Source: Chytriomyces cf. hyalinus JEL632
Lineage: Eukaryota > Chytridiomycota > Chytridiomycetes > Chytridiales > Chytriomycetaceae
Reading direction: 5' to 3'
Assembly (NCBI GenBank): GCA_025435555.1
Contig: JAIWWG010000158.1
Span: forward strand, 1 to 48,843
DNA: 48,843 nt
Position numbers and translations under genes: made by a program. Every line of letters begins with the position of its first letter. Within the stretch, counting starts at the first letter, position 1. A model generated the notes under the pieces. The model did no database searches. It was not told where the DNA came from and saw only the letters and a list, made by a program, of their open reading frames with translations. Below are positions 2,138 through 44,359 of this stretch, in pieces.

Positions 2138-2155
2138 AAAAAAAGTCTGTTTGAA

Positions 2156-4039
2156 ATGTCCACGGTCATCAAAAGCAGCAGCACCAACACCAAGCACCCG
2201 TTCGTGATGCTGGAGCTCAACATCGCAAAGCGCCTCAAGGGGACGGCTCGCTGTCCCGTGGCGGGATGCGGGTCGGCCTCTCTGAAGAGCCTTGGGGTGG
2301 GAGGGAATCCGAACCAGTTTGGGTTCTCCACCATCCAAATGCAGTGCACCACGTGCACCAAACGTTGCAGACTCAACGCAGCGCTGAAGGCAGGAGGGTC
2401 GGCCTCTGCGGACCTGTACGCAGAGTGGGAGAAGGCTTTCGGTAAGCTGGTCCCAGTCACTTCCACCACAGGCACAGCAGCAAAGCGCCGCCGCCAGAAC
2501 TCCGAAGCAGACACTGCCACTGCAGTCTCTACTTCCACACCCAGTGCTTCCCAGAGTCGTCTGATCCAACAGACCCTCTCATTTGCTGCAGCCACCGCTG
2601 GCCGCTCTGTGGATCAGCCACCAGCAGGCTCAGCAGGCTCAGCAAGCACAGCAACAACCTCAACAACCAATCTCACCACCCCAGCTGGTTCCGCAGGCCT
2701 TCCACAGAGCGAATTCAGCTTCATGGCACCCGCGCCAGCCATGCAGACCACCGCTGCAGCCTCCGAAATGTCGCCATCAGTGATTTCGAATGCATTTCCA
2801 CCCCCTGCTGTGCCTGCCACAGCTGTCAACTGGCAGCAGCGTGCAGAGGCAGCAGAGGCCGCTACAGCTTCCCTTCAGACGCAGCTGCAGTCCCTGATTG
2901 CGCTGCTGGCCCAGCTGGTCACCCAGATGCAGCAGGGCTCAGTTGGTGTGGGTAAGTCATCAGGCACAGCAAATGAGTGTCAGCCAACTGTGGCGCAGCC
3001 ATTGAGCACAGCAACAGCCCTCTTGGCTTCCATCAGTGCTTCAACTGCTCCCACGCTCGCAGCACCAACTCCCAATGGAGCCCAGTCCACCCACGTGCAG
3101 CCCCATGTGCGTACCTCTCGAAAAAGCGGTCGTGGAGGTCGCACTGGACCTGGAGGGCGTATTGTCCCAGGTGCTGCCCCTGCCTCAACAACAACTGTTT
3201 CTGTACCCGTTGCTGTTGAAAACACTTCCACACAGGTTGTTGAAGCCGCCTGGTCCACTGTTGCACGTAATGGAACGCGTCGTGCCCCTCCACCATCTTG
3301 CGAATCTCGTCAACGCGCGCCGCAAACTCAGCAGCAGTATGATGAAAAAACACACCGCATGCGTCAAAAGAAGGCATTACAGATGGCGAAAGCTGTCCCT
3401 GAACCGAAAAAGTTTGCAGTGATCCGTGTTGAACTCCACAGCAGTCGTCAGTTGCGCGGATGTTCCTTCCGGGACCGGAAACATTTGATCGATGCGTTTG
3501 TGGGACAGATGGGGGTTCGCCACAATGTGGCTCTTACCTCATCTATTGGTAACTCCATCATTGAGCTGTATTGTCCGACTGATGTTGTTCTGGAAGTGGT
3601 GCGAGTTCTTAGGGAGCGTGGCCAACAAGTCCTCCTTGCAGCCTTCAACCCACTCATATCCGACATTGACGGAAATCGCCTTGACTCCACCCAGACAGAA
3701 AAAGCTGCCAAGCGCCTCGCGTTTTTGTGCAAAGCCGCACGTACTGTCAATCTCCGTGCTGCCATCCTTGCCGGTGCCTCTCAGCAACTCAAGGAAGCCA
3801 CGCAGAAAGTGTTTGAAACCATCCGAGGCTCCCCATCCGACTCCCTTCTTGCACCCCCACGCCCCCACCGTAGCGCGTTTGCGAAATTTGCTGCCCCAGA
3901 CACACTGTCGCTAACTGATTTTGTGACTCTCGACCCAGTTCCGGAATCTACTGAGTTTGTCGATAGTCAAGACGATGTTGCCATGTCTGTGTCCAATCTG
4001 GATCTTGGTCCCGCGGCTGACGCCGCCGACCAAGAATGA
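2156..4039 (+). CDS. ORF1 protein of family A LINE (copy A2)
   Basis: A 627-residue protein presumed to bind element RNA and form the ribonucleoprotein with ORF2p. Cys33, Cys38, Cys64, Cys67 and Cys71 form a zinc-ribbon-like cluster (C-x4-C then C-x2-C-x3-C). KRRR at 110-113 may be a nuclear localisation signal. Residues 120-220 are Ala/Ser/Thr/Pro-rich and low complexity. Residues 226-260 look like a coiled coil or long amphipathic helix. A basic Gly/Arg stretch lies at 321-335. Residues about 419-500 look like a small alpha/beta RNA-binding domain ending in the motif AFNPL, shared with family B. The start is the first ATG of the element, only 18 bases from its 5' end, with a purine at -3. 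The stop overlaps the ORF2 start in ATGA. Functions are inferred from position and composition. Confidence 0.9.
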   Translation: MSTVIKSSSTNTKHPFVMLELNIAKRLKGTARCPVAGCGSASLKSLGVGGNPNQFGFSTIQMQCTTCTKRCRLNAALKAGGSASADLYAEWEKAFGKLVPVTSTTGTAAKRRRQNSEADTATAVSTSTPSASQSRLIQQTLSFAAATAGRSVDQPPAGSAGSASTATTSTTNLTTPAGSAGLPQSEFSFMAPAPAMQTTAAASEMSPSVISNAFPPPAVPATAVNWQQRAEAAEAATASLQTQLQSLIALLAQLVTQMQQGSVGVGKSSGTANECQPTVAQPLSTATALLASISASTAPTLAAPTPNGAQSTHVQPHVRTSRKSGRGGRTGPGGRIVPGAAPASTTTVSVPVAVENTSTQVVEAAWSTVARNGTRRAPPPSCESRQRAPQTQQQYDEKTHRMRQKKALQMAKAVPEPKKFAVIRVELHSSRQLRGCSFRDRKHLIDAFVGQMGVRHNVALTSSIGNSIIELYCPTDVVLEVVRVLRERGQQVLLAAFNPLISDIDGNRLDSTQTEKAAKRLAFLCKAARTVNLRAAILAGASQQLKEATQKVFETIRGSPSDSLLAPPRPHRSAFAKFAAPDTLSLTDFVTLDPVPESTEFVDSQDDVAMSVSNLDLGPAADAADQE

Positions 4040-7000
4040 TCAAAATCGCATTTTCGAATCTCAACGGGCTGTCTGGCAAAGCCGAAGAAGTCCTGAGATT
4101 CAAGTCTGCGCAATCTGTTGACCTTTCTTTAATGGTGGAAACGTGGCTCTCCCCAACATCCTCCATTCCTTTTCGACCACACCTATTTAATATCACAAGT
4201 ACAAACACGGAGGCAATTGCGGGAGGTCGGCGCAATTTTGGCGGCATTTTGGCGTTCTCAACTGCAACTCTCTCCCCCCAATTCCGAGTTATCTATGAAG
4301 ATCCCTTGGGGTTCTATTGCGCAATGCGCATCTCTGATCTTATCCTCATCACTGCCTACATCCCCCCCTCTGCTGACAATCGGGTAATCGGGGACATGCT
4401 TCAAAAAGCGGAAACGTTATCTGAAGGCTTTACGTTGCGTTGTCTTTTGGTTGGCGATCTGAACGCACGGATGACGGATGCTGGTGATTCACTCACAAAC
4501 ACACGTGGAACGTATATGCAGCAGGAACTGTTCAACTCTGGACTTGCGCTTCAAATCCCGGAGTCTGGGAAATGGACGTCGTGGGCTGGTGGTGGTCGAG
4601 GGATTCCGGATGTTGTACTCTCGAGCTTCCCAGTCTCTAACCTCACAGTTCATGAAGGCGAGTCACTTGGAGGTTCGGACCATCGGCCGCTGACATTTTC
4701 TGTGCCACTGGATGTCGAAACCAAGCCCAAGTCTTTTGCGCGCTGGAATGTTCGTCGCCTCACAACTGCCAAATACCATCAGCGTTTTGCTGAGGAGCTG
4801 GAGTCCACGCAGCAGGAGATCATGGATCAACTGGAATTGCTGCGAACACGCTTGGAAAGCCCTGCTGTGGGATACGTTGCGGGTGTATCACAGTGCGATG
4901 CACACACCGTGGCACCTGCAGTAGGCGCCAACCCTCCGGGAAGTACTTCCCATGCTTCTCTTGATCCTGTTACCCACACTGCAGATTGCCCCAGAGCCAC
5001 CACTCACATGTCTGACAGTCCTTCTCAGTCCGCTGGTCCATCCCACTCCCATCCACGTTCTGTCGATGCTCCCAACCCATCTACGCAGCAGGACATGTGC
5101 TTATGCCTGGAATTGCTGCGAACGAGCTTTGAAAGCCCTGCTGTGGGGTACATCGCGGGTGCATCACAGTGCGATGCACACACCGCGGTACCTGCAGTAG
5201 GCGCTCCCCTCCCGGGAAGTACTTCTCGCTCCTCGCTCTTGAACAATACTCACACACCAAACCGTGCTAGAACTCAAGAGTTGATCAACGAGGCCTGGGA
5301 ACACTTCCTGTCATGGGTCCGAAATGCTGCGTCAAAGTCAATTGGTGTCCTCCAAGTCTCTGACCATCTGCCATCGGAGTTTTGGACTGATGAGCTTGAA
5401 CAAAGTCGGGACAACGTGCAGCAAGAACTTGCGAACGTGCAACAGGAAATCGAGCGTGGCCAGTTGTCTCGTCTCGAAATCAAACGCCTTGCTTCCGAAC
5501 TGACCAACACTCAGCGTGCTTACCGGGCGGATCTGACCACACGCAAGCGCGTGCTCTTCGAAGATGCTGTCGATAAGCTCACAGTCCCACAAAACATGTC
5601 CTCGTTCATGCGCATGGTAAAAGGAGCCAAGTCGCGAAAAGACCGCACTGTCTGCAAACTGGACCCGGCGAAAATCAATGAACACGCTGCCCATTTTCGA
5701 ACTACCTTTGGAGCACCTCCGACTGGACATCCCCAACCTGGACCCCCTGCGCTTGAGGAAATCCAGTCGCGTCCAACTCAGGAAGTCTTCAACCCGGATG
5801 CGATCATGTCTGCGATTGCTGGACTCCCACTCGGAAAGGCTACTGGATCCGATGGAATTCCTGCTGAACTCATCAAAGCCGGTGGCGATCTCATGGCTGA
5901 CGTTCTCAGTGTTTTCCTGCCCATGGTCCATGCTGCTGCAACTATTCCATCTGACTGGAGGAAGGCGCTCATTGTGCCAGTCTTCAAGAAGAAGGGATCT
6001 GATCAGGACATTGCAAACTACCGACCTATTGCACTGACAAGTACGATACGACGACTCTACGAGCGGCTGCTTGTTCCTGAACTTGGACCCGTAATGCAAC
6101 AACTCGATGACTTTCAAGGTGGCTTCAGACCCGGTCGGTCCTCGCTCGATCAAGCCATGGTTCTCCACGAAACCCTGAACACCAATGAACATGCTTCGAC
6201 TATCCTGCTGGACATCAAAGCGGCATATGACGAAGTCGATCGAAGGGTTCTTTGGCAAATGCTCACACAAGTCTTCGGCCTGGACGAATTCATGCTTGCA
6301 CGGCTCCAGGATCTTTTCGATCACAACTCGTGCTGTCTGGTGGTGGCTGGCGTGATTAGTGATCCGATTGACAACGAACGAGGTCTTTTGCAGGGTGCTA
6401 CTCTGTCCCCGATTTTGTTCAACTGTCACATCCATGGTCTCTCAATTCGGCTACGTGCTCCTGGAATCCCGCGAATTCGAATCAACGGTATCCATCTCAA
6501 TAACCTCCTGTTTGCAGACGATACGTCCTTGGTAGCTGCAAATCAACATGATCTCGCAGTCCTGCTCCGAACGTGTGAGGAATGGTCCAACACTGTCGGC
6601 ATCCGGTTCTCGCCATCCAAGTGCATCTATCTCGGTCCTGTTCCAGCACTACGTGATGTACCTCTCAAGCTCTACAACGTGGACCTTCCATCCCAGCAAT
6701 GTGCCCCGTATCTCGGCATCCCTTTTGGCCAACACGGAATCAACTGGGCTCTGCTGGCAAAGGAACGAACTTCAAAAGCGCGTGGTGTCATTGTGGCGCT
6801 GGCATCGGTAGGTATGAATGCAATGGGCTGGGCTCCTGCAGCTTCTGTTACTATCTACAGGAGTTTCATTCGGCCGGTCCTTGAATATGGCATTGCTCTC
6901 AAGCTCCCATCCGCGTCCACGCTCAAGTTGTACGAGTCGGTCCAACGTCTTGCACTACGGACTCTCACATCAACACCCCGCAACACGTCCACTGCCGCTC

Positions 7001-7857
7001 TCCACAAGCTGCTGCAAGTCGAACCATTCAAACACCGTGCTACCGAGCTCAATCTCATGTGGTCCTCCCGATTGCATAACTCAACTGATCGTTCTATCCC
7101 GGCTGTTCGTTTCTGGCGCGGCGCTCTGCTTGGTGCTGACAAACCATTTCAGGAATGTCTTCCCCGCCTTGCTCGCTCCAACCCACTTGTGACTCATGTG
7201 GATGCTAAATGGATTGATTTTCGACAGCAACCACTGGTTCCCCCACCTCCAGCTGAAGTTCCGTTCCGGTACCCTCCGAAGCCAAAACAAGCGCTGTCTG
7301 ACAATGCTCGCAAGAAGCTGCGCAAGGAATCCATCGTCAACCTGGACAACAACCTGGACACCATTGCTGGCGCAATCCAAGTCGAAACCAAAGACCCAGT
7401 CCGGCCGTATCTGACTGCCTGCAAGGGAATTGACCGCAAGACACGCAACAACATCCTTCGCTGGACTCTTGGTGCCGTCACCCGACACGAACCGTGCCTC
7501 AAGTGCAACGACGTACTGACCCGATCCCATGCTGCTGACTGTTCTGGTGCCACTGCTCTCCTGCGCATCAACTGGGACACGCTTGCACCTCCTGCCGGCC
7601 GAATGACCTGGCTTGATACGATCCTGAATGAAGTCCGGAATACACCGCCCTCCGAAATCGACACGTACACCGAAGTCTCTTCTGCCGTAGCTCTCATCTA
7701 CACCGAATGTCGCCACCTCCAACAGCAAGCCAATGGCTACTGGGCCGAGCCAGATGCACCCGCACGACCACTGCCGCCTCGAAGACCGCGAAATCGCATA
7801 CCTCAACCCGGGGGAGCCCCGCTTGGGCGACCACGGCAAAACCCGGAGCCTGGATAA
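4036..7857 (+). CDS. ORF2 polyprotein: APE endonuclease + reverse transcriptase, family A (copy A2)
   Basis: A 1,273-residue enzyme for target-primed reverse transcription. The APE-type endonuclease fills about residues 1-225, with Asn8, Glu35 in VETWL, Asp141 and Asn143 in GDLNAR, Asp192, and SDH at 214-216. A linker (about 226-450) holds an internal tandem duplication. The reverse transcriptase covers about 590-960: SDGIPAEL, NYRPIALT, QGGFRPGRSS, motif A with Asp726, GLLQGATLSP, and FADD with Asp828/Asp829. A thumb-like region follows. A finger C1154-x2-C1157-x7-H1165-x3-C1169 and an Arg/Pro-rich tail end the protein. The start ATG overlaps the ORF1 stop as ATGA, so translation is probably coupled to ORF1. 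All catalytic residues are present, so the copy looks active. Confidence 0.96.
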   Translation: MIKIAFSNLNGLSGKAEEVLRFKSAQSVDLSLMVETWLSPTSSIPFRPHLFNITSTNTEAIAGGRRNFGGILAFSTATLSPQFRVIYEDPLGFYCAMRISDLILITAYIPPSADNRVIGDMLQKAETLSEGFTLRCLLVGDLNARMTDAGDSLTNTRGTYMQQELFNSGLALQIPESGKWTSWAGGGRGIPDVVLSSFPVSNLTVHEGESLGGSDHRPLTFSVPLDVETKPKSFARWNVRRLTTAKYHQRFAEELESTQQEIMDQLELLRTRLESPAVGYVAGVSQCDAHTVAPAVGANPPGSTSHASLDPVTHTADCPRATTHMSDSPSQSAGPSHSHPRSVDAPNPSTQQDMCLCLELLRTSFESPAVGYIAGASQCDAHTAVPAVGAPLPGSTSRSSLLNNTHTPNRARTQELINEAWEHFLSWVRNAASKSIGVLQVSDHLPSEFWTDELEQSRDNVQQELANVQQEIERGQLSRLEIKRLASELTNTQRAYRADLTTRKRVLFEDAVDKLTVPQNMSSFMRMVKGAKSRKDRTVCKLDPAKINEHAAHFRTTFGAPPTGHPQPGPPALEEIQSRPTQEVFNPDAIMSAIAGLPLGKATGSDGIPAELIKAGGDLMADVLSVFLPMVHAAATIPSDWRKALIVPVFKKKGSDQDIANYRPIALTSTIRRLYERLLVPELGPVMQQLDDFQGGFRPGRSSLDQAMVLHETLNTNEHASTILLDIKAAYDEVDRRVLWQMLTQVFGLDEFMLARLQDLFDHNSCCLVVAGVISDPIDNERGLLQGATLSPILFNCHIHGLSIRLRAPGIPRIRINGIHLNNLLFADDTSLVAANQHDLAVLLRTCEEWSNTVGIRFSPSKCIYLGPVPALRDVPLKLYNVDLPSQQCAPYLGIPFGQHGINWALLAKERTSKARGVIVALASVGMNAMGWAPAASVTIYRSFIRPVLEYGIALKLPSASTLKLYESVQRLALRTLTSTPRNTSTAALHKLLQVEPFKHRATELNLMWSSRLHNSTDRSIPAVRFWRGALLGADKPFQECLPRLARSNPLVTHVDAKWIDFRQQPLVPPPPAEVPFRYPPKPKQALSDNARKKLRKESIVNLDNNLDTIAGAIQVETKDPVRPYLTACKGIDRKTRNNILRWTLGAVTRHEPCLKCNDVLTRSHAADCSGATALLRINWDTLAPPAGRMTWLDTILNEVRNTPPSEIDTYTEVSSAVALIYTECRHLQQQANGYWAEPDAPARPLPPRRPRNRIPQPGGAPLGRPRQNPEPG
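4804..5238 (+). repeat. Internal tandem duplication in ORF2 linker (copy A2)
   Basis: Residues 257-309 (bases 4804-4962) and 349-401 (5080-5238) are diverged copies offset by exactly 92 codons. Both contain STQQ, LELLRT, ESPAVGY, SQCDAHT, PAVGA and PGSTS. The same duplication lies at 16172-16606 (A3), 41110-41544 (A5) and 47020-47454 (A6). Family B ORF2 lacks it. Confidence 0.9.
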
Positions 7858-8052
7858 TCAACCGTCAAGCCCGAACTGACCATACATATCTTATTACCTT
7901 TACCGATCATCTGTTTTCTTAACATTTCCGCACTTTACTTCTGATTCTTTGGAGTTCTTGAACTTTTTTTGAGTGATTTTTGCTATCTTTCAACCCCGCA
8001 CTTGTGTTACTGTGTAACTTGATTAAAAGAAACTGAAAACGTTAGGGTTAGG
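7858..8052 (+). promoter_or_regulatory. Family A 3' UTR: poly(A) signal, hairpin, possible promoter for downstream copy
   Basis: This is the reference family A tail (A2). It has T-rich tracts, a short perfect inverted repeat GTTAC-TGT-GTAAC at 8006-8018, an ATTAAA poly(A)-signal variant at 8022-8027, then ACTGAAAAC and the telomere-like block. It contains no ATG, so a transcript started here would present no upstream AUG before the next element. A promoter role is inferred from the near absence of a 5' UTR in the downstream elements. No core promoter motif is convincing. Other copies lie at 1943-2137, 19226-19420, 38250-38444 and 44164-44359. Confidence 0.5.
8041..8052 (+). repeat. Telomere-like junction block, A2/B1
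   Basis: GTTAGGGTTAGG follows ACTGAAAAC of A2 and precedes the 7-A run and CTCTCTTG of B1. It is the first junction in the window between the two families. Confidence 0.9.
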
Positions 8053-8716
8053 AAAAAAACTCTCTTGAAATTGTGTTGGTTCATTGCCAGCACCGAAATC
8101 CCCAAGAGCGCAACCACAGCAACCCACCACCAACATTCAACAGCAGCCGAGGATCTCGTCGATCTTTAAGCGTCCAAAAGCATCCGAAGAACCCGAATCA
8201 GCGAGCGTTAAGCCCGAACCGACCCCGTTTGCGTTTAGTGCATCAGCATCAGATTACGTCATCAACACCAACCTCCGAGTTGTCGTCAAAGCCGCCACCC
8301 CAGACGGCTTCACCCAGTTCGAACGAGCAACTTGGCAATTCGCAAAGAAGCTCCTCAAGTGCAAACAGATCATTGGCAATTCAGTCTGTGATTTCGAATT
8401 TCAAACGAAGAGTGCCTGTGGCAATAAAACCCCATTCGGCATCAGTCTCACGTCTATCCAGTGTAAGAACAGCGAGTGTGCCAGCAGACCCCGACTCAGA
8501 GACGCCTGTCGTAATTCTGGAATCCAAGATCTTATCGATCTCGCACTTGAATCAGCACAGCTCGAAGACCATCTCCGGGCGCATTACAATCGAAAACAGC
8601 GAAAGAAGGCAGTCCCCTTTATTCCACAGCCCGCAGGCATCAAACGCACCGTTGACGCTGTCGACTCCAGTGATTCTGAATTTGAAATTGACTTTGACTG
8701 CGAGAAAAACGAAAAA
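8053..8716 (+). promoter_or_regulatory. AUG-free leader/N-terminal coding segment of family B (copy B1)
   Basis: No ATG occurs in any of the three forward frames across these 664 bases, while CAT (ATG on the other strand) occurs 12 times. The first ATG, at 8717, lies in a strong AAAAAATGTC context. The identical segment recurs at 19421-20083, 24872-25535 and 30324-30987. I infer selection against upstream AUGs on a scanned RNA. Confidence 0.7.
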
Positions 8717-9658
8717 ATGTCGAACCCAGCAATGAACCTTGCTGAACTCCAAAAAATGGTTCTTGAGAACAACAAACGTGTCGACGAATTTATGCGCACC
8801 ATCAACACACAGATGGAAATGATCCGTGAACAGAGTGCACAATTGAAACAACAGATCGAAAACAATGCAGCCCTCCAACGTGAAATCAACGACATGCGCA
8901 ACCGTCTTTCACAGCAACCCCAAACTCAACAGCCACAACAACAACAACCACAACAGCAACAACAACAACAAAAGTCCACCCGGGCTGCCAGTCGCGCTGC
9001 GCGCTCCGCCAGCCGTGGTAGACCCACTGAATCCCATGCGAATGGCCCTGTGTACCGCCCAAAAAACATGAACCGTACCCAAACGTTCAACAAAAACTTC
9101 AAAGCTGCTCCCTCGTACAAAGAGATTGCTGCCATGTCGATTCGATCAGACTTCAATGCGCCAGCCCGTGAAGGCCCAGCCCCCGTCCGTGCAGAATCCA
9201 TTAAGTCGTGCTTTGTATCGCTCAGATTCTTGAAGAAGGAAGCCAAATTGAACGGACCCATGAAAGCAACACGCGCCATCTTCCGCGACACGTTCGAACT
9301 GCCGTATATCGAGGACATCAGTCCACTTGGTCGTGGATTCTCCATTGCTGAGATCTTCTTTGATGGTCGTCATGAAGCCGATATTCGTCAGAAACTCGAC
9401 GCGAAGCAGATCTTGCTCAGCGATTTCAACCCGTTGGATAGTCCGCCACACCAACCGGATGCGAATGAGAACATGATGAAAGAATGCATGTGCGCGCGCC
9501 GTGCTGGGGTTTATCGCAGAGCTCGTTTTGCGCTTGTGAAGCAGGCTGCACTCGAGGGATGTGACATGGCAATGCAGGCTCGTATTCGAGAACTTGCTGC
9601 GCCAAAACAGGGTAATCAGTCAGGATCCAACTCTGAGGAAACTCAGATGGAGCAATGA
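8084..9658 (+). CDS. ORF1 protein of family B LINE, non-AUG start (copy B1)
   Basis: A 524-residue protein if started at the TTG codon at 8084. The frame is open from 8069, just after an in-frame TGA at 8066, and its first ATG is Met212 at 8717. N-terminal residues about 85-160 are Cys-rich (Cys93, 102, 112, 127, 132, 142) and align with the family A ORF1 zinc-like region through GN-x4-FG and QC-x(2-4)-C. That argues the ATG-less part is translated. An acidic patch (192-206), a coiled coil (about 214-276), a poly-Gln tract (276-296), an Arg/Ser-rich stretch (297-313) and an RNA-binding-like domain (about 374-452, ending DFNPL) follow. The stop overlaps ORF2 as ATGA. The exact start is uncertain. 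Initiation at Met212 would give a 313-residue form lacking the Cys-rich domain. Confidence 0.82.
   Translation: MPAPKSPRAQPQQPTTNIQQQPRISSIFKRPKASEEPESASVKPEPTPFAFSASASDYVINTNLRVVVKAATPDGFTQFERATWQFAKKLLKCKQIIGNSVCDFEFQTKSACGNKTPFGISLTSIQCKNSECASRPRLRDACRNSGIQDLIDLALESAQLEDHLRAHYNRKQRKKAVPFIPQPAGIKRTVDAVDSSDSEFEIDFDCEKNEKMSNPAMNLAELQKMVLENNKRVDEFMRTINTQMEMIREQSAQLKQQIENNAALQREINDMRNRLSQQPQTQQPQQQQPQQQQQQQKSTRAASRAARSASRGRPTESHANGPVYRPKNMNRTQTFNKNFKAAPSYKEIAAMSIRSDFNAPAREGPAPVRAESIKSCFVSLRFLKKEAKLNGPMKATRAIFRDTFELPYIEDISPLGRGFSIAEIFFDGRHEADIRQKLDAKQILLSDFNPLDSPPHQPDANENMMKECMCARRAGVYRRARFALVKQAALEGCDMAMQARIRELAAPKQGNQSGSNSEETQMEQ
8909..8971 (+). repeat. CAA/CAG poly-glutamine microsatellite in B ORF1
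   Basis: A Gln-rich run of mixed CAA and CAG codons covers ORF1 residues 276-296, directly after the coiled coil. The tract is the same length in all four B copies (also 20276-20338, 25728-25790, 31180-31242), which is notable for a sequence type that usually varies between copies. Confidence 0.85.
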
Positions 9659-13504: not shown

Positions 13505-13523
13505 AAAAAAAAGTCTGTTTGAA

Positions 13524-19420: not shown

Positions 19421-19450
19421 AAAAAACTCTCTTGAAATTGTGTTGGTTCA

Positions 19451-24871: not shown

Positions 24872-24902
24872 AAAAAAACTCTCTTGAAATTGTGTTGGTT
24901 CA

Positions 24903-30323: not shown

Positions 30324-30354
30324 AAAAAAACTCTCTTGAAATTGTGTTGGTTCA

Positions 30355-34900: not shown

Positions 34901-35573
34901 AGACACCATTGACGAATGGCACCACCAAGACATGCTCGCGCTTCAACAGAAATCCCAAGCCCGGACATCGAAAATTCTCCCAGTCCCTGCGACCCGCAAG
35001 CAGCGCCACGCGCTTGTCATGGCCGGCCCCGCAATTTCCAGACCAGTCTCCCGCACCATCCTCCTCTGGCTCCTTGGCCGTATATGCAACCACCAAGAGT
35101 GCCGCACGTGCGGCGTCGAACTGTCCCGCCAGCATGGCATTGAGTGCTCCGGCATTGAACCCGCCCTGCAAGCCGCCTTCGACAACGATCTCGGACCGCC
35201 ACCAGAACTCCTCGCGCATGGAGCCACTATCATCGACGAAGCCATTAGCAAGCTGGAGTTCAAATCCGGGACCAATACAAGAATCGAAGCCACTTACCAG
35301 GCCATCAACACGATCCGACTCGCCTGCGGCGGATACAGCGAGATCATCGACGCCAGCACCGCTACGCTCCAGCAAGAGCTCGACGCCATCTTCGCGGACT
35401 ACGAGGGCCTGCGAAGCATCCGAGTTCAGGCCACCGCCATCATGAACGCCCACTACAACCCAGCGAAATTCAAACCAACTTACCGAAGCGGGCCATCAAA
35501 CGCACAAGCACCCCACCGCGGGGCGATCCGGAACCGAGGAGGTCGACCGAGAGGCCGTGGACGAGGCGGCTGA
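31926..35573 (+). CDS. ORF2 endonuclease-reverse transcriptase, family B (copy B4)
   Basis: A 1,215-residue product identical to the other three B copies and intact. It overlaps ORF1 by four bases (ATGA). Confidence 0.95.
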   Translation: MIEHTKIGFLNARRNLIGEGHHIESLMKHKKLDYLILADTGLRKSATNPMRNVIAETRGETLIGDPARGVTKARNGLMMIDATGRLTSIFEISDDDGRWMVVRLGDTLLVSAYLAPSEGAATLTAFDLMMTRLQQQNIGSPIIMVGDLNARHIRVGDHSTVPNSGVNGQRRTWIEKWLDDGDWLRVDPVQGKWTTWSTNGGKGITDLVFANGPGATRVSNLTVLDNETAIGSDHHLLTFEVTGLAGFRKPPFERINIRALQGRMDQYREELEKREGEINQVLTATIEEIEHHRLTAGPVTWEDRVDIADRAWDLVSDWIRSAARKALGVVKFHGGALKADMIEDHLKELMRWRTEAQDAMLEAGLDPITRRERAGKLRYINIIVRKAAKRSRKRLYNAVTDTRVYDPSAEAKRIACQRARSLRSNCALRPDKMDQYAQHFKTTFGSPPKGEDQPNPIALDTTNPRSPRTPLTKTSVADIIKEENVHSLVAWMPSGKAAGEDGIHGELVKGPKDPETEIIITAYPLTLAFRIFTALLATPTEWNVANVALVYKNKGDQHDVANYRPISLTCRIRMVYEGCFRHLLEHRTNSFTDTAQGGFRRNRSTLDQLLTLHEIIAAHPDLHAVYLDIQAAYDCTNRPLLWTEMFENPSDPNPQITHSVLIPIFRCLFDHNVARLLVSGSKSADIPVTRGLLQGTLSAPPLFNISINSLPATLRDLYQNACIRVGPHRINSLLFADDTTVFARNKHTLQQIINTVAEWGKKKGVTWAPHKSVAVGPTEMCIKMNGIEIAQRDSTSYVGMTMTATGIDMTASTSKRITDAKKTLSWMKGKGFNGFGFRTLHSLYMYPVFIRSQLEYGLAIRPLTTEELQPLQKFQNTCLRILYSVPTSTSIASLHLLSSVPTIKTRNLILNAAYYYRLHQSNDTRNLTLHTYRQGLERDHRPESTSLIKHTLAHNPHFRSLPRLALIVNPLTVNNRQPMLITPRGSTHKIPEDTIDEWHHQDMLALQQKSQARTSKILPVPATRKQRHALVMAGPAISRPVSRTILLWLLGRICNHQECRTCGVELSRQHGIECSGIEPALQAAFDNDLGPPPELLAHGATIIDEAISKLEFKSGTNTRIEATYQAINTIRLACGGYSEIIDASTATLQQELDAIFADYEGLRSIRVQATAIMNAHYNPAKFKPTYRSGPSNAQAPHRGAIRNRGGRPRGRGRGG

Positions 35574-35775
35574 TGCGGCGGACTTGCGCTGCTGTTGTTG
35601 GCAGATCGACATTTTCTGTCAACTTTTACATTTAACCATTTCGAAATTTTTTTTCGCGACTTAGTCGTTTTTTCTCTGTATCCTTACCAAACACGGCCCA
35701 AAAAGGGAACCGATTACCATTTTGAAAGCGCGCTTTATCAAGCAATAAAGACACACTGAAAACGTTAGGGTTAGG
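35574..35775 (+). other. Family B 3' UTR (copy B4)
   Basis: A 202-base tail as in B1. A minus-strand open frame runs from here into A4 (35661-36827), but I treat it as chance fusion of non-coding frames. Confidence 0.75.
35764..35775 (+). repeat. Telomere-like junction block, B4/A4 (no A-run)
   Basis: GTTAGGGTTAGG is followed directly by GGACTGATGAG, which is internal ORF2 sequence of family A. The next bases GG can be read either as more telomeric repeat or as element sequence, so there are up to two bases of microhomology. This is the only junction without an A-run. Confidence 0.9.
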
Positions 35776-35777
35776 GG

Positions 35778-38249
35778 ACTGATGAGCTTGAACAAAGTCG
35801 GGACAACGTGCAGCAAGAACTTGCGAACGTGCAACAGGAAATCGAGCGTGGCCAGTTGTCTCGTCTCGAAATCAAACGCCTTGCTTCCGAACTGACCAAC
35901 ACTCAGCGTGATTACCGGGCGGATCTGACCACACGCAAGCGCGTGCTCTTCGAAGATGCTGTCGATAAGCTCACAGTCCCACAAAACATGTCCTCGTTCA
36001 TGCGCATGGTAAAAGGAGCCAAGTCGCGAAAAGACCGCACTGTCTGCAAACTGGACCCGGCGAAAATCAATGAACACGCTGCCCATTTTCGAACTACCTT
36101 TGGAGCACCTCCGACTGGACATCCCCAACCTGGACCCCCTGCGCTTGAGGAAATCCAGTCGCGTCCAACTCAGGAAGTCTTCAACCCGGATGCGATCATG
36201 TCTGCGATTGCTGGACTCCCACTCGGAAAGGCTACTGGATCCGATGGAATTCCTGCTGAACTCATCAAAGCCGGTGGCGATCTCATGGCTGACGTTCTCA
36301 GTGTTTTCCTGCCCATGGTCCATGCTGCTGCAACTATTCCATCTGACTGGAGGAAGGCGCTCATTGTGCCAGTCTTCAAGAAGAAGGGATCTGATCAGGA
36401 CATTGCAAACTACCGACCTATTGCACTGACAAGTACGATACGACGACTCTACGAGCGGCTGCTTGTTCCTGAACTTGGACCCGTAATGCAACAACTCGAT
36501 GACTTTCAAGGTGGCTTCAGACCCGGTCGGTCCTCGCTCGATCAAGCCATGGTTCTCCACGAAACCCTGAACACCAATGAACATGCTTCGACTATCCTGC
36601 TGGACATCAAAGCGGCATATGACGAAGTCGATCGAAGGGTTCTTTGGCAAATGCTCACACAAGTCTTCGGCCTGGACGAATTCATGCTTGCACGGCTCCA
36701 GGATCTTTTCGATCACAACTCGTGCTGTCTGGTGGTGGCTGGCGTGATTAGTGATCCGATTGACAACGAACGAGGTCTTTTGCAGGGTGCTACTCTGTCC
36801 CCGATTTTGTTCAACTGTCACATCCATGGTCTCTCAATTCGGCTACGTGCTCCTGGAATCCCGCGAATTCGAATCAACGGTATCCATCTCAATAACCTCC
36901 TGTTTGCAGACGATACGTCCTTGGTAGCTGCAAATCAACATGATCTCGCAGTCCTGCTCCGAACGTGTGAGGAATGGTCCAACACTGTCGGCATCCGGTT
37001 CTCGCCATCCAAGTGCATCTATCTCGGTCCTGTTCCAGCACTACGTGATGTACCTCTCAAGCTCTACAACGTGGACCTTCCATCCCAGCAATGTGCCCCG
37101 TATCTCGGCATCCCTTTTGGCCAACACGGAATCAACTGGGCTCTGCTGGCAAAGGAACGAACTTCAAAAGCGCGTGGTGTCATTGTGGCGCTGGCATCGG
37201 TAGGTATGAATGCAATGGGCTGGGCTCCTGCAGCTTCTGTTACTATCTACAGGAGTTTCATTCGGCCGGTCCTTGAATATGGCATTGCTCTCAAGCTCCC
37301 ATCCGCGTCCACGCTCAAGTTGTACGAGTCGGTCCAACGTCTTGCACTACGGACTCTCACATCAACACCCCGCAACACGTCCACTGCCGCTCTCCACAAG
37401 CTGCTGCAAGTCGAACCATTCAAACACCGTGCTACCGAGCTCAATCTCATGTGGTCCTCCCGATTGCATAACTCAACTGATCGTTCTATCCCGGCTGTTC
37501 GTTTCTGGCGCGGCGCTCTGCTTGGTGCTGACAAACCATTTCAGGAATGTCTTCCCCGCCTTGCTCGCTCCAACCCACTTGTGACTCATGTGGATGCTAA
37601 ATGGATTGATTTTCGACAGCAACCACTGGTTCCCCCACCTCCAGCTGAAGTTCCGTTCCGGTACCCTCCGAAGCCAAAACAAGCGCTGTCTGACAATGCT
37701 CGCAAGAAGCTGCGCAAGGAATCCATCGTCAACCTGGACAACAACCTGGACACCATTGCTGGCGCAATCCAAGTCGAAACCAAAGACCCAGTCCGGCCGT
37801 ATCTGACTGCCTGCAAGGGAATTGACCGCAAGACACGCAACAACATCCTTCGCTGGACTCTTGGTGCCGTCACCCGACACGAACCGTGCCTCAAGTGCAA
37901 CGACGTACTGACCCGATCCCATGCTGCTGACTGTTCTGGTGCCACTGCTCTCCTGCGCATCAACTGGGACACGCTTGCACCTCCTGCCGGCCGAATGACC
38001 TGGCTTGATACGATCCTGAATGAAGTCCGGAATACACCGCCCTCCGAAATCGACACGTACACCGAAGTCTCTTCTGCCGTAGCTCTCATCTACACCGAAT
38101 GTCGCCACCTCCAACAGCAAGCCAATGGCTACTGGGCCGAGCCAGATGCACCCGCACGACCACTGCCGCCTCGAAGACCGCGAAATCGCATACCTCAACC
38201 CGGGGGAGCCCCGCTTGGGCGACCACGGCAAAACCCGGAGCCTGGATAA
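35778..38249 (+). pseudogene. ORF2 of A4, 5'-truncated (reverse transcriptase and C-terminus only)
   Basis: The frame equals residues 451-1273 of family A ORF2. It is open from just after a TAG stop supplied by the telomeric repeat (35772-35774). There is no endonuclease, and the first in-frame ATG is Met521, so a protein is unlikely to be made or useful. The reverse transcriptase motifs and CCHC finger are intact, with Ala495Asp the only change. Retention of a perfect frame despite certain loss of function shows the insertion is recent. Confidence 0.9.
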
Positions 38250-38444
38250 TCAACCGTCAAGCCCGAACTGACCATACATATCTTATTACCTTTACCGATC
38301 ATCTGTTTTCTTAACATTTCCGCACTTTACTTCTGATTCTTTGGAGTTCTTGAACTTTTTTTGAGTGATTTTTGCTATCTTTCAACCCCGCACTTGTGTT
38401 ACTGTGTAACTTGATTAAAAGAAACTGAAAACGTTAGGGTTAGG
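38250..38444 (+). other. Family A 3' UTR (copy A4)
   Basis: A 195-base tail identical to that of A2, with ATTAAA and the terminal block. The truncated element could therefore still supply any promoter that resides in the 3' UTR to copy A5. Confidence 0.75.
38433..38444 (+). repeat. Telomere-like junction block, A4/A5
   Basis: GTTAGGGTTAGG followed by a 6-A run and GTCTGTTTG of A5. Confidence 0.9.
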
Positions 38445-38461
38445 AAAAAAGTCTGTTTGAA

Positions 38462-40345
38462 ATGTCCACGGTCATCAAAAGCAGCAGCACCAACACCAAG
38501 CACCCGTTCGTGATGCTGGAGCTCAACATCGCAAAGCGCCTCAAGGGGACGGCTCGCTGTCCCGTGGCGGGATGCGGGTCGGCCTCTCTGAAGAGCCTTG
38601 GGGTGGGAGGGAATCCGAACCAGTTTGGGTTCTCCACCATCCAAATGCAGTGCACCACGTGCACCAAACGTTGCAGACTCAACGCAGCGCTGAAGGCAGG
38701 AGGGTCGGCCTCTGCGGACCTGTACGCAGAGTGGGAGAAGGCTTTCGGTAAGCTGGTCCCAGTCACTTCCACCACAGGCACAGCAGCAAAGCGCCGCCGC
38801 CAGAACTCCGAAGCAGACACTGCCACTGCAGTCTCTACTTCCACACCCAGTGCTTCCCAGAGTCGTCTGATCCAACAGACCCTCTCATTTGCTGCAGCCA
38901 CCGCTGGCCGCTCTGTGGATCAGCCACCAGCAGGCTCAGCAGGCTCAGCAAGCACAGCAACAACCTCAACAACCAATCTCACCACCCCAGCTGGTTCCGC
39001 AGGCCTTCCACAGAGCGAATTCAGCTTCATGGCACCCGCGCCAGCCATGCAGACCACCGCTGCAGCCTCCGAAATGTCGCCATCAGTGATTTCGAATGCA
39101 TTTCCACCCCCTGCTGTGCCTGCCACAGCTGTCAACTGGCAGCAGCGTGCAGAGGCAGCAGAGGCCGCTACAGCTTCCCTTCAGACGCAGCTGCAGTCCC
39201 TGATTGCGCTGCTGGCCCAGCTGGTCACCCAGATGCAGCAGGGCTCAGTTGGTGTGGGTAAGTCATCAGGCACAGCAAATGAGTGTCAGCCAACTGTGGC
39301 GCAGCCATTGAGCACAGCAACAGCCCTCTTGGCTTCCATCAGTGCTTCAACTGCTCCCACGCTCGCAGCACCAACTCCCAATGGAGCCCAGTCCACCCAC
39401 GTGCAGCCCCATGTGCGTACCTCTCGAAAAAGCGGTCGTGGAGGTCGCACTGGACCTGGAGGGCGTATTGTCCCAGGTGCTGCCCCTGCCTCAACAACAA
39501 CTGTTTCTGTACCCGTTGCTGTTGAAAACACTTCCACACAGGTTGTTGAAGCCGCCTGGTCCACTGTTGCACGTAATGGAACGCGTCGTGCCCCTCCACC
39601 ATCTTGCGAATCTCGTCAACGCGCGCCGCAAACTCAGCAGCAGTATGATGAAAAAACACACCGCATGCGTCAAAAGAAGGCATTACAGATGGCGAAAGCT
39701 GTCCCTGAACCGAAAAAGTTTGCAGTGATCCGTGTTGAACTCCACAGCAGTCGTCAGTTGCGCGGATGTTCCTTCCGGGACCGGAAACATTTGATCGATG
39801 CGTTTGTGGGACAGATGGGGGTTCGCCACAATGTGGCTCTTACCTCATCTATTGGTAACTCCATCATTGAGCTGTATTGTCCGACTGATGTTGTTCTGGA
39901 AGTGGTGCGAGTTCTTAGGGAGCGTGGCCAACAAGTCCTCCTTGCAGCCTTCAACCCACTCATATCCGACATTGACGGAAATCGCCTTGACTCCACCCAG
40001 ACAGAAAAAGCTGCCAAGCGCCTCGCGTTTTTGTGCAAAGCCGCACGTACTGTCAATCTCCGTGCTGCCATCCTTGCCGGTGCCTCTCAGCAACTCAAGG
40101 AAGCCACGCAGAAAGTGTTTGAAACCATCCGAGGCTCCCCATCCGACTCCCTTCTTGCACCCCCACGCCCCCACCGTAGCGCGTTTGCGAAATTTGCTGC
40201 CCCAGACACACTGTCGCTAACTGATTTTGTGACTCTCGACCCAGTTCCGGAATCTACTGAGTTTGTCGATAGTCAAGACGATGTTGCCATGTCTGTGTCC
40301 AATCTGGATCTTGGTCCCGCGGCTGACGCCGCCGACCAAGAATGA
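38462..40345 (+). CDS. ORF1 protein of family A LINE (copy A5)
   Basis: A 627-residue protein identical to ORF1p of A2. The ATG lies 17 bases from the element start, the shortest 5' UTR among the intact A copies. Confidence 0.9.
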   Translation: MSTVIKSSSTNTKHPFVMLELNIAKRLKGTARCPVAGCGSASLKSLGVGGNPNQFGFSTIQMQCTTCTKRCRLNAALKAGGSASADLYAEWEKAFGKLVPVTSTTGTAAKRRRQNSEADTATAVSTSTPSASQSRLIQQTLSFAAATAGRSVDQPPAGSAGSASTATTSTTNLTTPAGSAGLPQSEFSFMAPAPAMQTTAAASEMSPSVISNAFPPPAVPATAVNWQQRAEAAEAATASLQTQLQSLIALLAQLVTQMQQGSVGVGKSSGTANECQPTVAQPLSTATALLASISASTAPTLAAPTPNGAQSTHVQPHVRTSRKSGRGGRTGPGGRIVPGAAPASTTTVSVPVAVENTSTQVVEAAWSTVARNGTRRAPPPSCESRQRAPQTQQQYDEKTHRMRQKKALQMAKAVPEPKKFAVIRVELHSSRQLRGCSFRDRKHLIDAFVGQMGVRHNVALTSSIGNSIIELYCPTDVVLEVVRVLRERGQQVLLAAFNPLISDIDGNRLDSTQTEKAAKRLAFLCKAARTVNLRAAILAGASQQLKEATQKVFETIRGSPSDSLLAPPRPHRSAFAKFAAPDTLSLTDFVTLDPVPESTEFVDSQDDVAMSVSNLDLGPAADAADQE

Positions 40346-43300
40346 TCAAAATCGCATTTTCGAATCTCAACGGGCTGTCTGGCAAAGCCGAAGAAGTCCT
40401 GAGATTCAAGTCTGCGCAATCTGTTGACCTTTCTTTAATGGTGGAAACGTGGCTCTCCCCAACATCCTCCATTCCTTTTCGACCACACCTATTTAATATC
40501 ACAAGTACAAACACGGAGGCAATTGCGGGAGGTCGGCGCAATTTTGGCGGCATTTTGGCGTTCTCAACTGCAACTCTCTCCCCCCAATTCCGAGTTATCT
40601 ATGAAGATCCCTTGGGGTTCTATTGCGCAATGCGCATCTCTGATCTTATCCTCATCACTGCCTACATCCCCCCCTCTGCTGACAATCGGGTAATCGGGGA
40701 CATGCTTCAAAAAGCGGAAACGTTATCTGAAGGCTTTACGTTGCGTTGTCTTTTGGTTGGCGATCTGAACGCACGGATGACGGATGCTGGTGATTCACTC
40801 ACAAACACACGTGGAACGTATATGCAGCAGGAACTGTTCAACTCTGGACTTGCGCTTCAAATCCCGGAGTCTGGGAAATGGACGTCGTGGGCTGGTGGTG
40901 GTCGAGGGATTCCGGATGTTGTACTCTCGAGCTTCCCAGTCTCTAACCTCACAGTTCATGAAGGCGAGTCACTTGGAGGTTCGGACCATCGGCCGCTGAC
41001 ATTTTCTGTGCCACTGGATGTCGAAACCAAGCCCAAGTCTTTTGCGCGCTGGAATGTTCGTCGCCTCACAACTGCCAAATACCATCAGCGTTTTGCTGAG
41101 GAGCTGGAGTCCACGCAGCAGGAGATCATGGATCAACTGGAATTGCTGCGAACACGCTTGGAAAGCCCTGCTGTGGGATACGTTGCGGGTGTATCACAGT
41201 GCGATGCACACACCGTGGCACCTGCAGTAGGCGCCAACCCTCCGGGAAGTACTTCCCATGCTTCTCTTGATCCTGTTACCCACACTGCAGATTGCCCCAG
41301 AGCCACCACTCACATGTCTGACAGTCCTTCTCAGTCCGCTGGTCCATCCCACTCCCATCCACGTTCTGTCGATGCTCCCAACCCATCTACGCAGCAGGAC
41401 ATGTGCTTATGCCTGGAATTGCTGCGAACGAGCTTTGAAAGCCCTGCTGTGGGGTACATCGCGGGTGCATCACAGTGCGATGCACACACCGCGGTACCTG
41501 CAGTAGGCGCTCCCCTCCCGGGAAGTACTTCTCGCTCCTCGCTCTTGAACAATACTCACACACCAAACCGTGCTAGAACTCAAGAGTTGATCAACGAGGC
41601 CTGGGAACACTTCCTGTCATGGGTCCGAAATGCTGCGTCAAAGTCAATTGGTGTCCTCCAAGTCTCTGACCATCTGCCATCGGAGTTTTGGACTGATGAG
41701 CTTGAACAAAGTCGGGACAACGTGCAGCAAGAACTTGCGAACGTGCAACAGGAAATCGAGCGTGGCCAGTTGTCTCGTCTCGAAATCAAACGCCTTGCTT
41801 CCGAACTGACCAACACTCAGCGTGCTTACCGGGCGGATCTGACCACACGCAAGCGCGTGCTCTTCGAAGATGCTGTCGATAAGCTCACAGTCCCACAAAA
41901 CATGTCCTCGTTCATGCGCATGGTAAAAGGAGCCAAGTCGCGAAAAGACCGCACTGTCTGCAAACTGGACCCGGCGAAAATCAATGAACACGCTGCCCAT
42001 TTTCGAACTACCTTTGGAGCACCTCCGACTGGACATCCCCAACCTGGACCCCCTGCGCTTGAGGAAATCCAGTCGCGTCCAACTCAGGAAGTCTTCAACC
42101 CGGATGCGATCATGTCTGCGATTGCTGGACTCCCACTCGGAAAGGCTACTGGATCCGATGGAATTCCTGCTGAACTCATCAAAGCCGGTGGCGATCTCAT
42201 GGCTGACGTTCTCAGTGTTTTCCTGCCCATGGTCCATGCTGCTGCAACTATTCCATCTGACTGGAGGAAGGCGCTCATTGTGCCAGTCTTCAAGAAGAAG
42301 GGATCTGATCAGGACATTGCAAACTACCGACCTATTGCACTGACAAGTACGATACGACGACTCTACGAGCGGCTGCTTGTTCCTGAACTTGGACCCGTAA
42401 TGCAACAACTCGATGACTTTCAAGGTGGCTTCAGACCCGGTCGGTCCTCGCTCGATCAAGCCATGGTTCTCCACGAAACCCTGAACACCAATGAACATGC
42501 TTCGACTATCCTGCTGGACATCAAAGCGGCATATGACGAAGTCGATCGAAGGGTTCTTTGGCAAATGCTCACACAAGTCTTCGGCCTGGACGAATTCATG
42601 CTTGCACGGCTCCAGGATCTTTTCGATCACAACTCGTGCTGTCTGGTGGTGGCTGGCGTGATTAGTGATCCGATTGACAACGAACGAGGTCTTTTGCAGG
42701 GTGCTACTCTGTCCCCGATTTTGTTCAACTGTCACATCCATGGTCTCTCAATTCGGCTACGTGCTCCTGGAATCCCGCGAATTCGAATCAACGGTATCCA
42801 TCTCAATAACCTCCTGTTTGCAGACGATACGTCCTTGGTAGCTGCAAATCAACATGATCTCGCAGTCCTGCTCCGAACGTGTGAGGAATGGTCCAACACT
42901 GTCGGCATCCGGTTCTCGCCATCCAAGTGCATCTATCTCGGTCCTGTTCCAGCACTACGTGATGTACCTCTCAAGCTCTACAACGTGGACCTTCCATCCC
43001 AGCAATGTGCCCCGTATCTCGGCATCCCTTTTGGCCAACACGGAATCAACTGGGCTCTGCTGGCAAAGGAACGAACTTCAAAAGCGCGTGGTGTCATTGT
43101 GGCGCTGGCATCGGTAGGTATGAATGCAATGGGCTGGGCTCCTGCAGCTTCTGTTACTATCTACAGGAGTTTCATTCGGCCGGTCCTTGAATATGGCATT
43201 GCTCTCAAGCTCCCATCCGCGTCCACGCTCAAGTTGTACGAGTCGGTCCAACGTCTTGCACTACGGACTCTCACATCAACACCCCGCAACACGTCCACTG

Positions 43301-44163
43301 CCGCTCTCCACAAGCTGCTGCAAGTCGAACCATTCAAACACCGTGCTACCGAGCTCAATCTCATGTGGTCCTCCCGATTGCATAACTCAACTGATCGTTC
43401 TATCCCGGCTGTTCGTTTCTGGCGCGGCGCTCTGCTTGGTGCTGACAAACCATTTCAGGAATGTCTTCCCCGCCTTGCTCGCTCCAACCCACTTGTGACT
43501 CATGTGGATGCTAAATGGATTGATTTTCGACAGCAACCACTGGTTCCCCCACCTCCAGCTGAAGTTCCGTTCCGGTACCCTCCGAAGCCAAAACAAGCGC
43601 TGTCTGACAATGCTCGCAAGAAGCTGCGCAAGGAATCCATCGTCAACCTGGACAACAACCTGGACACCATTGCTGGCGCAATCCAAGTCGAAACCAAAGA
43701 CCCAGTCCGGCCGTATCTGACTGCCTGCAAGGGAATTGACCGCAAGACACGCAACAACATCCTTCGCTGGACTCTTGGTGCCGTCACCCGACACGAACCG
43801 TGCCTCAAGTGCAACGACGTACTGACCCGATCCCATGCTGCTGACTGTTCTGGTGCCACTGCTCTCCTGCGCATCAACTGGGACACGCTTGCACCTCCTG
43901 CCGGCCGAATGACCTGGCTTGATACGATCCTGAATGAAGTCCGGAATACACCGCCCTCCGAAATCGACACGTACACCGAAGTCTCTTCTGCCGTAGCTCT
44001 CATCTACACCGAATGTCGCCACCTCCAACAGCAAGCCAATGGCTACTGGGCCGAGCCAGATGCACCCGCACGACCACTGCCGCCTCGAAGACCGCGAAAT
44101 CGCATACCTCAACCCGGGGGAGCCCCGCTTGGGCGACCACGGCAAAACCCGGAGCCTGGATAA
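40342..44163 (+). CDS. ORF2 endonuclease-reverse transcriptase, family A (copy A5)
   Basis: A 1,273-residue protein identical to A2 ORF2p, with intact endonuclease, reverse transcriptase and CCHC finger. It overlaps ORF1 by ATGA. The linker duplication is at 41110-41544. Confidence 0.96.
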   Translation: MIKIAFSNLNGLSGKAEEVLRFKSAQSVDLSLMVETWLSPTSSIPFRPHLFNITSTNTEAIAGGRRNFGGILAFSTATLSPQFRVIYEDPLGFYCAMRISDLILITAYIPPSADNRVIGDMLQKAETLSEGFTLRCLLVGDLNARMTDAGDSLTNTRGTYMQQELFNSGLALQIPESGKWTSWAGGGRGIPDVVLSSFPVSNLTVHEGESLGGSDHRPLTFSVPLDVETKPKSFARWNVRRLTTAKYHQRFAEELESTQQEIMDQLELLRTRLESPAVGYVAGVSQCDAHTVAPAVGANPPGSTSHASLDPVTHTADCPRATTHMSDSPSQSAGPSHSHPRSVDAPNPSTQQDMCLCLELLRTSFESPAVGYIAGASQCDAHTAVPAVGAPLPGSTSRSSLLNNTHTPNRARTQELINEAWEHFLSWVRNAASKSIGVLQVSDHLPSEFWTDELEQSRDNVQQELANVQQEIERGQLSRLEIKRLASELTNTQRAYRADLTTRKRVLFEDAVDKLTVPQNMSSFMRMVKGAKSRKDRTVCKLDPAKINEHAAHFRTTFGAPPTGHPQPGPPALEEIQSRPTQEVFNPDAIMSAIAGLPLGKATGSDGIPAELIKAGGDLMADVLSVFLPMVHAAATIPSDWRKALIVPVFKKKGSDQDIANYRPIALTSTIRRLYERLLVPELGPVMQQLDDFQGGFRPGRSSLDQAMVLHETLNTNEHASTILLDIKAAYDEVDRRVLWQMLTQVFGLDEFMLARLQDLFDHNSCCLVVAGVISDPIDNERGLLQGATLSPILFNCHIHGLSIRLRAPGIPRIRINGIHLNNLLFADDTSLVAANQHDLAVLLRTCEEWSNTVGIRFSPSKCIYLGPVPALRDVPLKLYNVDLPSQQCAPYLGIPFGQHGINWALLAKERTSKARGVIVALASVGMNAMGWAPAASVTIYRSFIRPVLEYGIALKLPSASTLKLYESVQRLALRTLTSTPRNTSTAALHKLLQVEPFKHRATELNLMWSSRLHNSTDRSIPAVRFWRGALLGADKPFQECLPRLARSNPLVTHVDAKWIDFRQQPLVPPPPAEVPFRYPPKPKQALSDNARKKLRKESIVNLDNNLDTIAGAIQVETKDPVRPYLTACKGIDRKTRNNILRWTLGAVTRHEPCLKCNDVLTRSHAADCSGATALLRINWDTLAPPAGRMTWLDTILNEVRNTPPSEIDTYTEVSSAVALIYTECRHLQQQANGYWAEPDAPARPLPPRRPRNRIPQPGGAPLGRPRQNPEPG

Positions 44164-44359
44164 TCAACCGTCAAGCCCGAACTGACCATACATATCTTAT
44201 TACCTTTACCGATCATCTGTTTTCTTAACATTTCCGCACTTTACTTCTGATTCTTTGGAGTTCTTGAACTTTTTTTGAGTGATTTTTGCTATCTTTCAAC
44301 CCCGCACTTGTGTTACTGGTGTAACTTGATTAAAAGAAACTGAAAACGTTAGGGTTAGG
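44164..44359 (+). other. Family A 3' UTR (copy A5)
   Basis: A 196-base tail, one base longer than in the other copies because of the extra G near 44320. ATTAAA and the terminal block are present. Confidence 0.75.
44348..44359 (+). repeat. Telomere-like junction block, A5/A6
   Basis: GTTAGGGTTAGG followed by G and only 5 A before GTCTGTTTG. The odd G may extend the telomeric repeat to TTAGGG or may be a base-call error, since the sequence just downstream is full of indels. Confidence 0.85.

Follow-up and report, generated by a model that had tools for sequence, protein, structure and literature searches.

The window analysed here is a 48,843-nucleotide stretch of DNA from the chytrid fungus Chytriomyces cf. 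hyalinus JEL632 (assembly GCA_025435555.1, contig JAIWWG010000158.1, forward strand), which is one whole contig of the assembly (C66 in our numbering; 37.78 Mb in 242 contigs). It consists of an array of long interspersed nuclear elements (LINEs) of two families, here called A and B, and contains no unique sequence. Ten units stand in one direction in the order A A B A B B B a A A, where a is a 5'-truncated A, and the outermost unit on each side is interrupted by the contig end (Table 1). The units are separated by nine joints, each made of a 3' tag, CTGAAAACG, followed by the telomere-like block TTAGGGTTAGG; the blocks start at 2127, 8042, 13494, 19410, 24861, 30313, 35765, 38434 and 44349. 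An initial annotation of this DNA had described ten same-direction elements in this order with telomere-like junctions, and the sequence bears it out. Chance is excluded by a genome-wide search for the joint pattern, which gave 72 occurrences in 37.8 Mb when up to one mismatch was allowed and none for the reversed control (91 and 6 occurrences, respectively, with at most three mismatches). The block was found to be 11 bases long and not 12 as first described; a twelfth G precedes the A-run at joint 44349, and the G that comes next at joint 35765 may belong to the truncated element. The window joints are followed by five to eight A's and a full 5' end, except at 35765, where the truncated A follows instead.

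Joint included, A measures 5915 bases (5916 in one copy) and B 5452 bases (5451 in one copy). The three full A copies are 99.95–99.98% identical and the four B copies 99.98–100%, and the last A is 99.3% identical to A with 16–17 gap openings, as at a poorly polished contig end; its interrupted frames are probably consensus errors of the contig end. The number and order of the units in the window rest on the assembler, and polishing may overstate the likeness of the copies. ORF1 and ORF2 (open reading frames 1 and 2) encode 627 and 1273 amino acids in A and 524 and 1215 amino acids in B, and the two frames overlap by four bases in both families. A and B are LINEs of the apurinic/apyrimidinic endonuclease (APE) type: their ORF2 proteins carry an APE-like endonuclease followed by a reverse transcriptase (RT), with Exo_endo_phos_2 and RVT_1 both above the Pfam cut-offs in each family, and no Pfam family scored above its cut-off in either ORF1 protein. 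The two ORF2 proteins share 28–29% identity over two main aligned parts. Their best matches among solved structures (PDB) are L1 ORF2 proteins and then R2-type RTs, all matches being to L1, R2 and related RTs, and a search for ORF2 relatives in viral contigs gave 172 pattern matches and no relatives. Copies truncated at the 5' end also occur, and these cut copies sit behind a joint.

Table 1 Units of the LINE array in the window and its first joint
Feature	Position	Strand	Remarks
A 3' part, cut by contig start	1..2126	+	99.86% to A 3791-5915
Joint TTAGGGTTAGG	2127..2137	+	First of nine
Full A	2138..8041	+	ORF1 2156-4039, ORF2 (APE endonuclease, RT) 4036-7857; 3' tag CTGAAAACG
Full B	8053..13493	+	ORF1 frame 8084-9658 (no early AUG), ORF2 9655-13302
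Full A	13505..19409	+	ORF1 13524-15407, ORF2 15404-19225
Full B	19421..24860	+	ORFs 19451-21025, 21022-24669
Full B	24872..30312	+	ORFs 24903-26477, 26474-30121
Full B	30324..35764	+	ORFs 30355-31929, 31926-35573
5'-truncated A, from A position 3258	35776..38433	+	Behind usual 11-base joint
Full A	38445..44348	+	ORF1 38462-40345, ORF2 40342-44163
A cut by contig end	44360..48843	+	Interrupted frames, ORFs 44424-46256, 46612-48252

The two families of the initial annotation proved too few: four families, A to D, occur in outward arrays in this genome, and a fifth, E, is reversed. C is a two-ORF element (copies on C92, C137, C10 and C5) whose ORF2 protein is 40% identical to that of B. D is 2.3 kb long with a single ORF, which resembles C ORF1 (31.8% over 701 aligned positions), and has no RT frame; it is whole in C94, nearly whole (99.3%) in C95, and present in C10 between joints 2343 bases apart. 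Otherwise divergent, A, B, C and D have in common the 3' tag CTGAAAACG and an N-terminal four-cysteine motif in their ORF1 proteins, and their 3' ends all read ACTGAAAACG, after TTAAAA or AATAAA. This AT-rich hexamer (TTAAAA in A; AATAAA in B, C and D) starts 30–32 bases upstream of the point where the next element begins, as at window 8011–8052 and 13463–13504, C92 ~8294 and C94 ~19885, and represents either a TATA-like spacing or simply a poly(A) signal. Full copies begin with an A-run of 5 to 11 A's (43 rows), which is absent from truncated copies; its variable length may reflect slippage at the start of transcription. A ORF1 has an early AUG. The ORF1 frames of B, C and D have no in-frame AUG ahead of the conserved cysteine motif (window 8053–8730; C92:2068; C94:17552), which implies a non-AUG start, splicing or another leader; in B an in-frame stop lies at 8066–8068, and the first methionine is residue 225 of the frame read from 8042.

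E was found at 23 places on 16 contigs. It encodes an RT (split over several frames in the C193 copy), has a poly(A) tail, read as poly(T), and runs in the direction opposite to A–D. With one place counted per contig, E lies within 400 bases of a contig end with its body outward on 9 of the 16 contigs, and on five more its outward end is within 30 kb, although one of these, C92, is small and has its other end closer to the element. Altogether 14 of the 16 contigs fit a polarity with the 3' end towards the centromere, and C165 and C182 do not. Before many E copies, with several exceptions, other sequence gives way to a short, degenerate TTAGGG-like stretch, and this in turn to the element. All nine copies within 400 bases of an end are at right-hand ends (C94, C177, C193, C232, C117, C76, C70, C167 and C137), and all TTAGGG tracts were found on the forward strand, which is perhaps an assembler effect.

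Runs of at least three perfect TTAGGG repeats are present on four contigs only (C94, C111, C193 and C209; 35 overlapping matches), located inward of elements, beyond them or on broken copies. At the end of C111 (993 kb), unique sequence is followed by ~21 TTAGGG repeats and then by an A that starts at its position 94 and fills the rest of the contig. At the end of C209, an A broken at A5391 gives way to TTAGGG-type repeats that reach the contig end. C94 carries an A cut by the contig start, two further A's, a D, a truncated A, a truncated D, five TTAGGG repeats, a piece of E and eight TTAGGG repeats at the contig end. Terminal TTAGGG beyond the array, a point raised in the initial annotation, is found on C94 (x8) and C209 and not in the window itself, which holds array only. 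Young arrays or terminal copies lie within ~37 kb of an end on seven contigs longer than 60 kb (C5, C40, C48, C68, C111, C209 and C238), and their 3' ends point outward on all seven; a HeT-A-like polarity was rejected for A–D on this ground. The domains, the TTAGGG tracts next to elements and the arrays near several other contig ends sustain the earlier proposal of telomere-associated APE-type LINEs, and a single internal locus, which that annotation had named as the outcome that would speak against it, is not what the genome holds. There is thus good support for a telomeric location of the young arrays, and the window, which has no unique anchor of its own, is by analogy probably telomeric as well.

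Among the remaining copies, older or diverged ones lie further inside on C46, C203 and C198, and C32 has one truncated A of 100% identity ~30 kb from its left end, facing outward and outside any array. Degenerate telomere-like stretches (TTAGAG, TTAAGG, TTAAGATTAAG and others) were seen between broken host sequence and young elements (C48 ~23520, C68 ~493770, C76 ~29287, C5 ~76655, C238 ~36580, C209 193530–193648) and at E borders (loci L055–L074); they look like error-prone healing or decayed telomeres, to which contig-end errors may add. Near-identical frames for a leucine-rich repeat (LRR) protein and a BTB-like protein near the ends of C111 and C68 (L022, L027) suggest duplicated subtelomeres; the LRR genes are tentatively chytrid-like.

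The joint behaves as an 11-bp target-site duplication, which is new here. Its block measures 10–12 bases at 39 of 43 joints before a full 5' end and at 12 of 19 before a truncated element, in a tally that left 15 of 77 rows unassigned, entered the stuttered joint L102 in two rows and, through a block common to C66 and C78, contains partly dependent rows. Point variants of the block are specific to arrays and are common to different families and different truncation points within them. On C10, all seven joints found read TTAGGGTTATG, between the neighbours C–C, C–B, B–C, C–D, D–C/D-like, D–C and A–C-like; C5 has three TTAGAGTTAGG joints and then two consensus joints, C203 three joints TTAAGGTTAGC, C140 three joints TTAGGGTTAGA, and C137 and C198 two joints each of a variant of their own. 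Pairs of same-variant joints within contigs numbered 33 against 3.6 expected, and none of 20,000 shuffles reached 33; the values were 27 against 3.2 with the repeated joint of C10 counted once (0/20,000) and 12 against 2.4 without C10 (4/20,000). The shuffled set was entered by hand and comprised 83 joints on 27 contigs, namely 82 of the 91 rows at up to three mismatches and one other joint; it omitted as likely chance matches C111 (two rows), C134, C166, C178, C180, C199 and C210, and also C5:96749, where the tag has an extra A and the block is consensus. The innermost elements point the same way in part. On C68, an exact second copy of the inner flank TTAGGATTAGG stands behind the first element, an informative duplication, and among six innermost elements read on both sides the duplication is exact at two (C68, and C113, where a consensus block makes it uninformative) and near at one (C238).

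Several observations weigh against duplication at telomeric joints as the whole account. The other three innermost elements (C5, C48 and C76) have no matching duplication, and at ~64.9 kb on C10 a C element that breaks off before its 3' tag runs straight into an A, the joint being absent; such misfit borders may stem from later breakage, healing or template switching. The mixed array of C10 (95 kb) sits mid-contig, copies on C49, C4 and C231, older or diverged, point inwards from the nearest end, and the outer A of C40 and the truncated A of C32 have no telomeric 5' flank. The constancy of CTGAAAACG is in part a matter of construction, as the tag was contained in the search bait. Finally, C66 and C78 have 24,993 bases in common (A B B B a, 99.94% identical) between different flanks, which reflects either copying by recombination or an assembly repeat.

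This shared block, the C/A fusion and a block on C10 that is present twice, alike in its truncated C and in its spacing, are what would be expected if arrays grew mainly by recombination, through break-induced replication between ends, unequal exchange or copying from D-loops or circles, with few real insertions. Such copying has been described for MoTeR arrays (PMC7367193; here and below, statements on published systems refer to the available parts of the cited texts). As the principal route we nevertheless consider it unlikely: C10, C5 and C203 each have one variant joint between different families and truncation points, for which whole-unit copying alone is insufficient, and the block keeps its length at truncated copies. 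It is more doubtful still that the block belongs to the element RNA, with a 3' terminus ...CTGAAAACGUUAGGGUUAGG and no target-site duplication, as in Penelope-like telomeric elements. Most joints are indeed identical, and a 3'-end stutter at C96:7007 (L102, C96:6985–7120), reading CTGAAAACGTTA-ACTGAAAACG-TTAGGGTTAGG, hints that the RNA can run into UUA; however, an RNA-borne block would move variants between arrays, and the non-consensus joints cluster by array and across families. We regard as similarly improbable that the unit order and number in the window are an assembly artefact, a false chain of true LINE joints. The near-identical units of 5–6 kb, the gaps concentrated in the contig-end units and the block common to C78 would suit it, whereas the same kind of joint occurs on many contigs, several of them with unique sequence, and the variants differ between contigs. 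An internal repeat cluster, for example centromeric or pericentromeric, agrees with the window's want of a unique flank and with the arrays inside C10, C203 and C198, but is scarcely credible and was rejected as the home of the young arrays, given the TTAGGG tracts that adjoin elements at the ends of C111, C209 and C94 and the many young arrays that face outward at contig ends.

In our reading, A–D are SART-like telomere LINEs whose new copies enter the 3' joints of existing ones. The window is likely to belong to a subterminal array in which two-ORF, APE-type LINEs target the telomere and which grows by reinsertion at its own joints, in a host with a telomerase gene. In this scheme, A–D would enter TTAGGG repeats in the orientation that puts the sense strand of the element on the G-rich strand, with 5' ends inward and 3' ends towards the terminus. 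The endonuclease would nick the C-rich strand just before TTAGGG (CG^TTAGGG in the joint), target-primed reverse transcription would begin at the 3' tag CTGAAAACG with no poly(A) tail, and a cut of the G-rich strand ~11 nt further (TTAGGGTTAGG^) would yield the 11-bp duplication. The new joint would be the smallest next target and each insertion would add one, so that reuse of the joint gives head-to-tail growth with a fixed spacer. Recombination between ends would also copy and trim arrays, and the ORF1-only D would presumably be mobilised in trans. Joints whose telomeric part is damaged (TTAAGGTTAGC, TTAGGGTTATA) seem to be reused, and together with the constant CTGAAAACG this suggests that the tag itself may be recognised, a hypothesis towards which the search bait is biased. 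For SART1, ~12 bases upstream of the nick are important (PMC7265360); by analogy, they would correspond here to the tag of the neighbour. One could go further and see the joint as both a self-renewing landing pad and a switch, tag CTGAAAACG plus 11 bases forming the next target and the hexamer the neighbour's promoter, with A–D as a mutually targeting guild that builds the ends outward and E the other way, alongside telomerase; we offer this as a speculation that is rather unlikely to hold in full.

The host appears to have telomerase. Two neighbouring stretches match the telomerase RT domain PF12009 above the Pfam cut-off, beside frames that we take to be further TERT motifs; the fungal chitin-synthase domain PF08407 has 14 matches in the assembly, and a search for 5.8S gave none. 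Since this RT domain is found together with TTAGGG on a broken A and at the C94 terminus, telomerase probably caps the ends, and not the LINEs, for which the initial annotation had suggested a capping role. The simplest reading from sequence is that the LINEs probably live in and under this cap, and that they buffer the chromosome ends is possible.

Telomeric repeats mask target-site duplications, as is stated for FoTeR (PMC12857005), so the origin of head-to-tail telomeric LINE arrays is often hidden. In this genome the record of array growth is unusually legible: point variants mark the joints as natural barcodes would, and they indicate that elements have inserted into the same 11 bases, and duplicated them, time after time. 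An incoming copy apparently lands in a short telomere-like joint and restores it for its successor, so that such trains could build themselves. One small fungal genome combines SART-like and HeT-A-like polarities, an ORF1-only family and a telomerase gene, and therefore offers a testable case of LINEs and telomerase sharing chromosome ends.

Telomeric elements have been listed from SART/TRAS, GilM/GilT and Zepp to MoTeR1, Athena and Tx1 (PMC10088271). In the open-licence literature, with most subscription papers outside its scope, we found no account of two-ORF elements of the APE type arrayed at the telomeres of a fungus with a near-constant 11-bp joint. The nearest fungal counterparts resemble A–D in arrangement. 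MoTeR1/2 of Magnaporthe form mixed head-to-tail arrays in TTAGGG telomeres, with 5' truncations and a non-autonomous partner, but their spacers range from half a repeat to more than 20, against the near-constant 11 bases here (PMC7367193), and MoTeR groups with restriction-like-endonuclease elements (PMC12857005), whereas A and B are of the APE type with two ORFs. CNL1 of Cryptococcus likewise forms subtelomeric arrays with telomeric repeats outside and is reported to insert by preference into its own copies; it differs in being R2-like, with one ORF in ~2.5 kb, target-site duplications of 0–13 bp and a target that the available text leaves undefined (PMC12810828). FoTeR of Fusarium oxysporum is a fungal telomeric non-LTR element flanked by telomeric motifs as well, of the restriction-like-endonuclease clade, and target-site duplications are described as not identifiable there (PMC12857005). 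The telomeric non-LTR elements that we found described in fungi are restriction-like-endonuclease or R2-like elements (available parts of the texts cited for MoTeR, FoTeR and CNL1). In place of one main ORF with a C-terminal restriction-like endonuclease, A and B have two ORFs and an N-terminal APE-type domain. This points to an arrival of APE-type LINEs at fungal telomeres that was separate from that of the MoTeR/CNL1 group.

HeT-A, TART and TAHRE of Drosophila resemble E, with the 3' poly(A) side inwards, and HeT-A is not known to encode an RT, which family D lacks as well. The polarity of HeT-A and TART, with the 3' end towards the centromere, is opposite to that of A–D, and their host is not known to have telomerase, whereas PF12009 is present here. 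The endonuclease-lacking Penelope-like elements of Mycosphaerella are fungal and subtelomeric and have TTAGGG at the 3' end, as A–D do; they differ in having, as described in the available text, no endonuclease, a low copy number and a 3' end that faces away from the telomere (PMC4522978). SART1 of Bombyx mori comes closest: it has two ORFs, an APE-type endonuclease and RT, and a sense strand on the G-rich telomeric strand, and Bombyx also has an opposite-facing second family (TRAS; here E) and a telomerase gene (PMC7265360, PMC4700185). Here too, the joints read TTAGGG on the sense strand, as do the insertions on C111 and C113. SART1 joins its poly(A) to AGG (cut TT^AGG) and needs at least three TTAGG repeats (PMC7265360), whereas A–D have no poly(A), join their 3' end CTGAAAACG to TTAGGG and leave an 11-base block. 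By analogy of structure and target, SART appears to be a better comparison for A–D than HeT-A.

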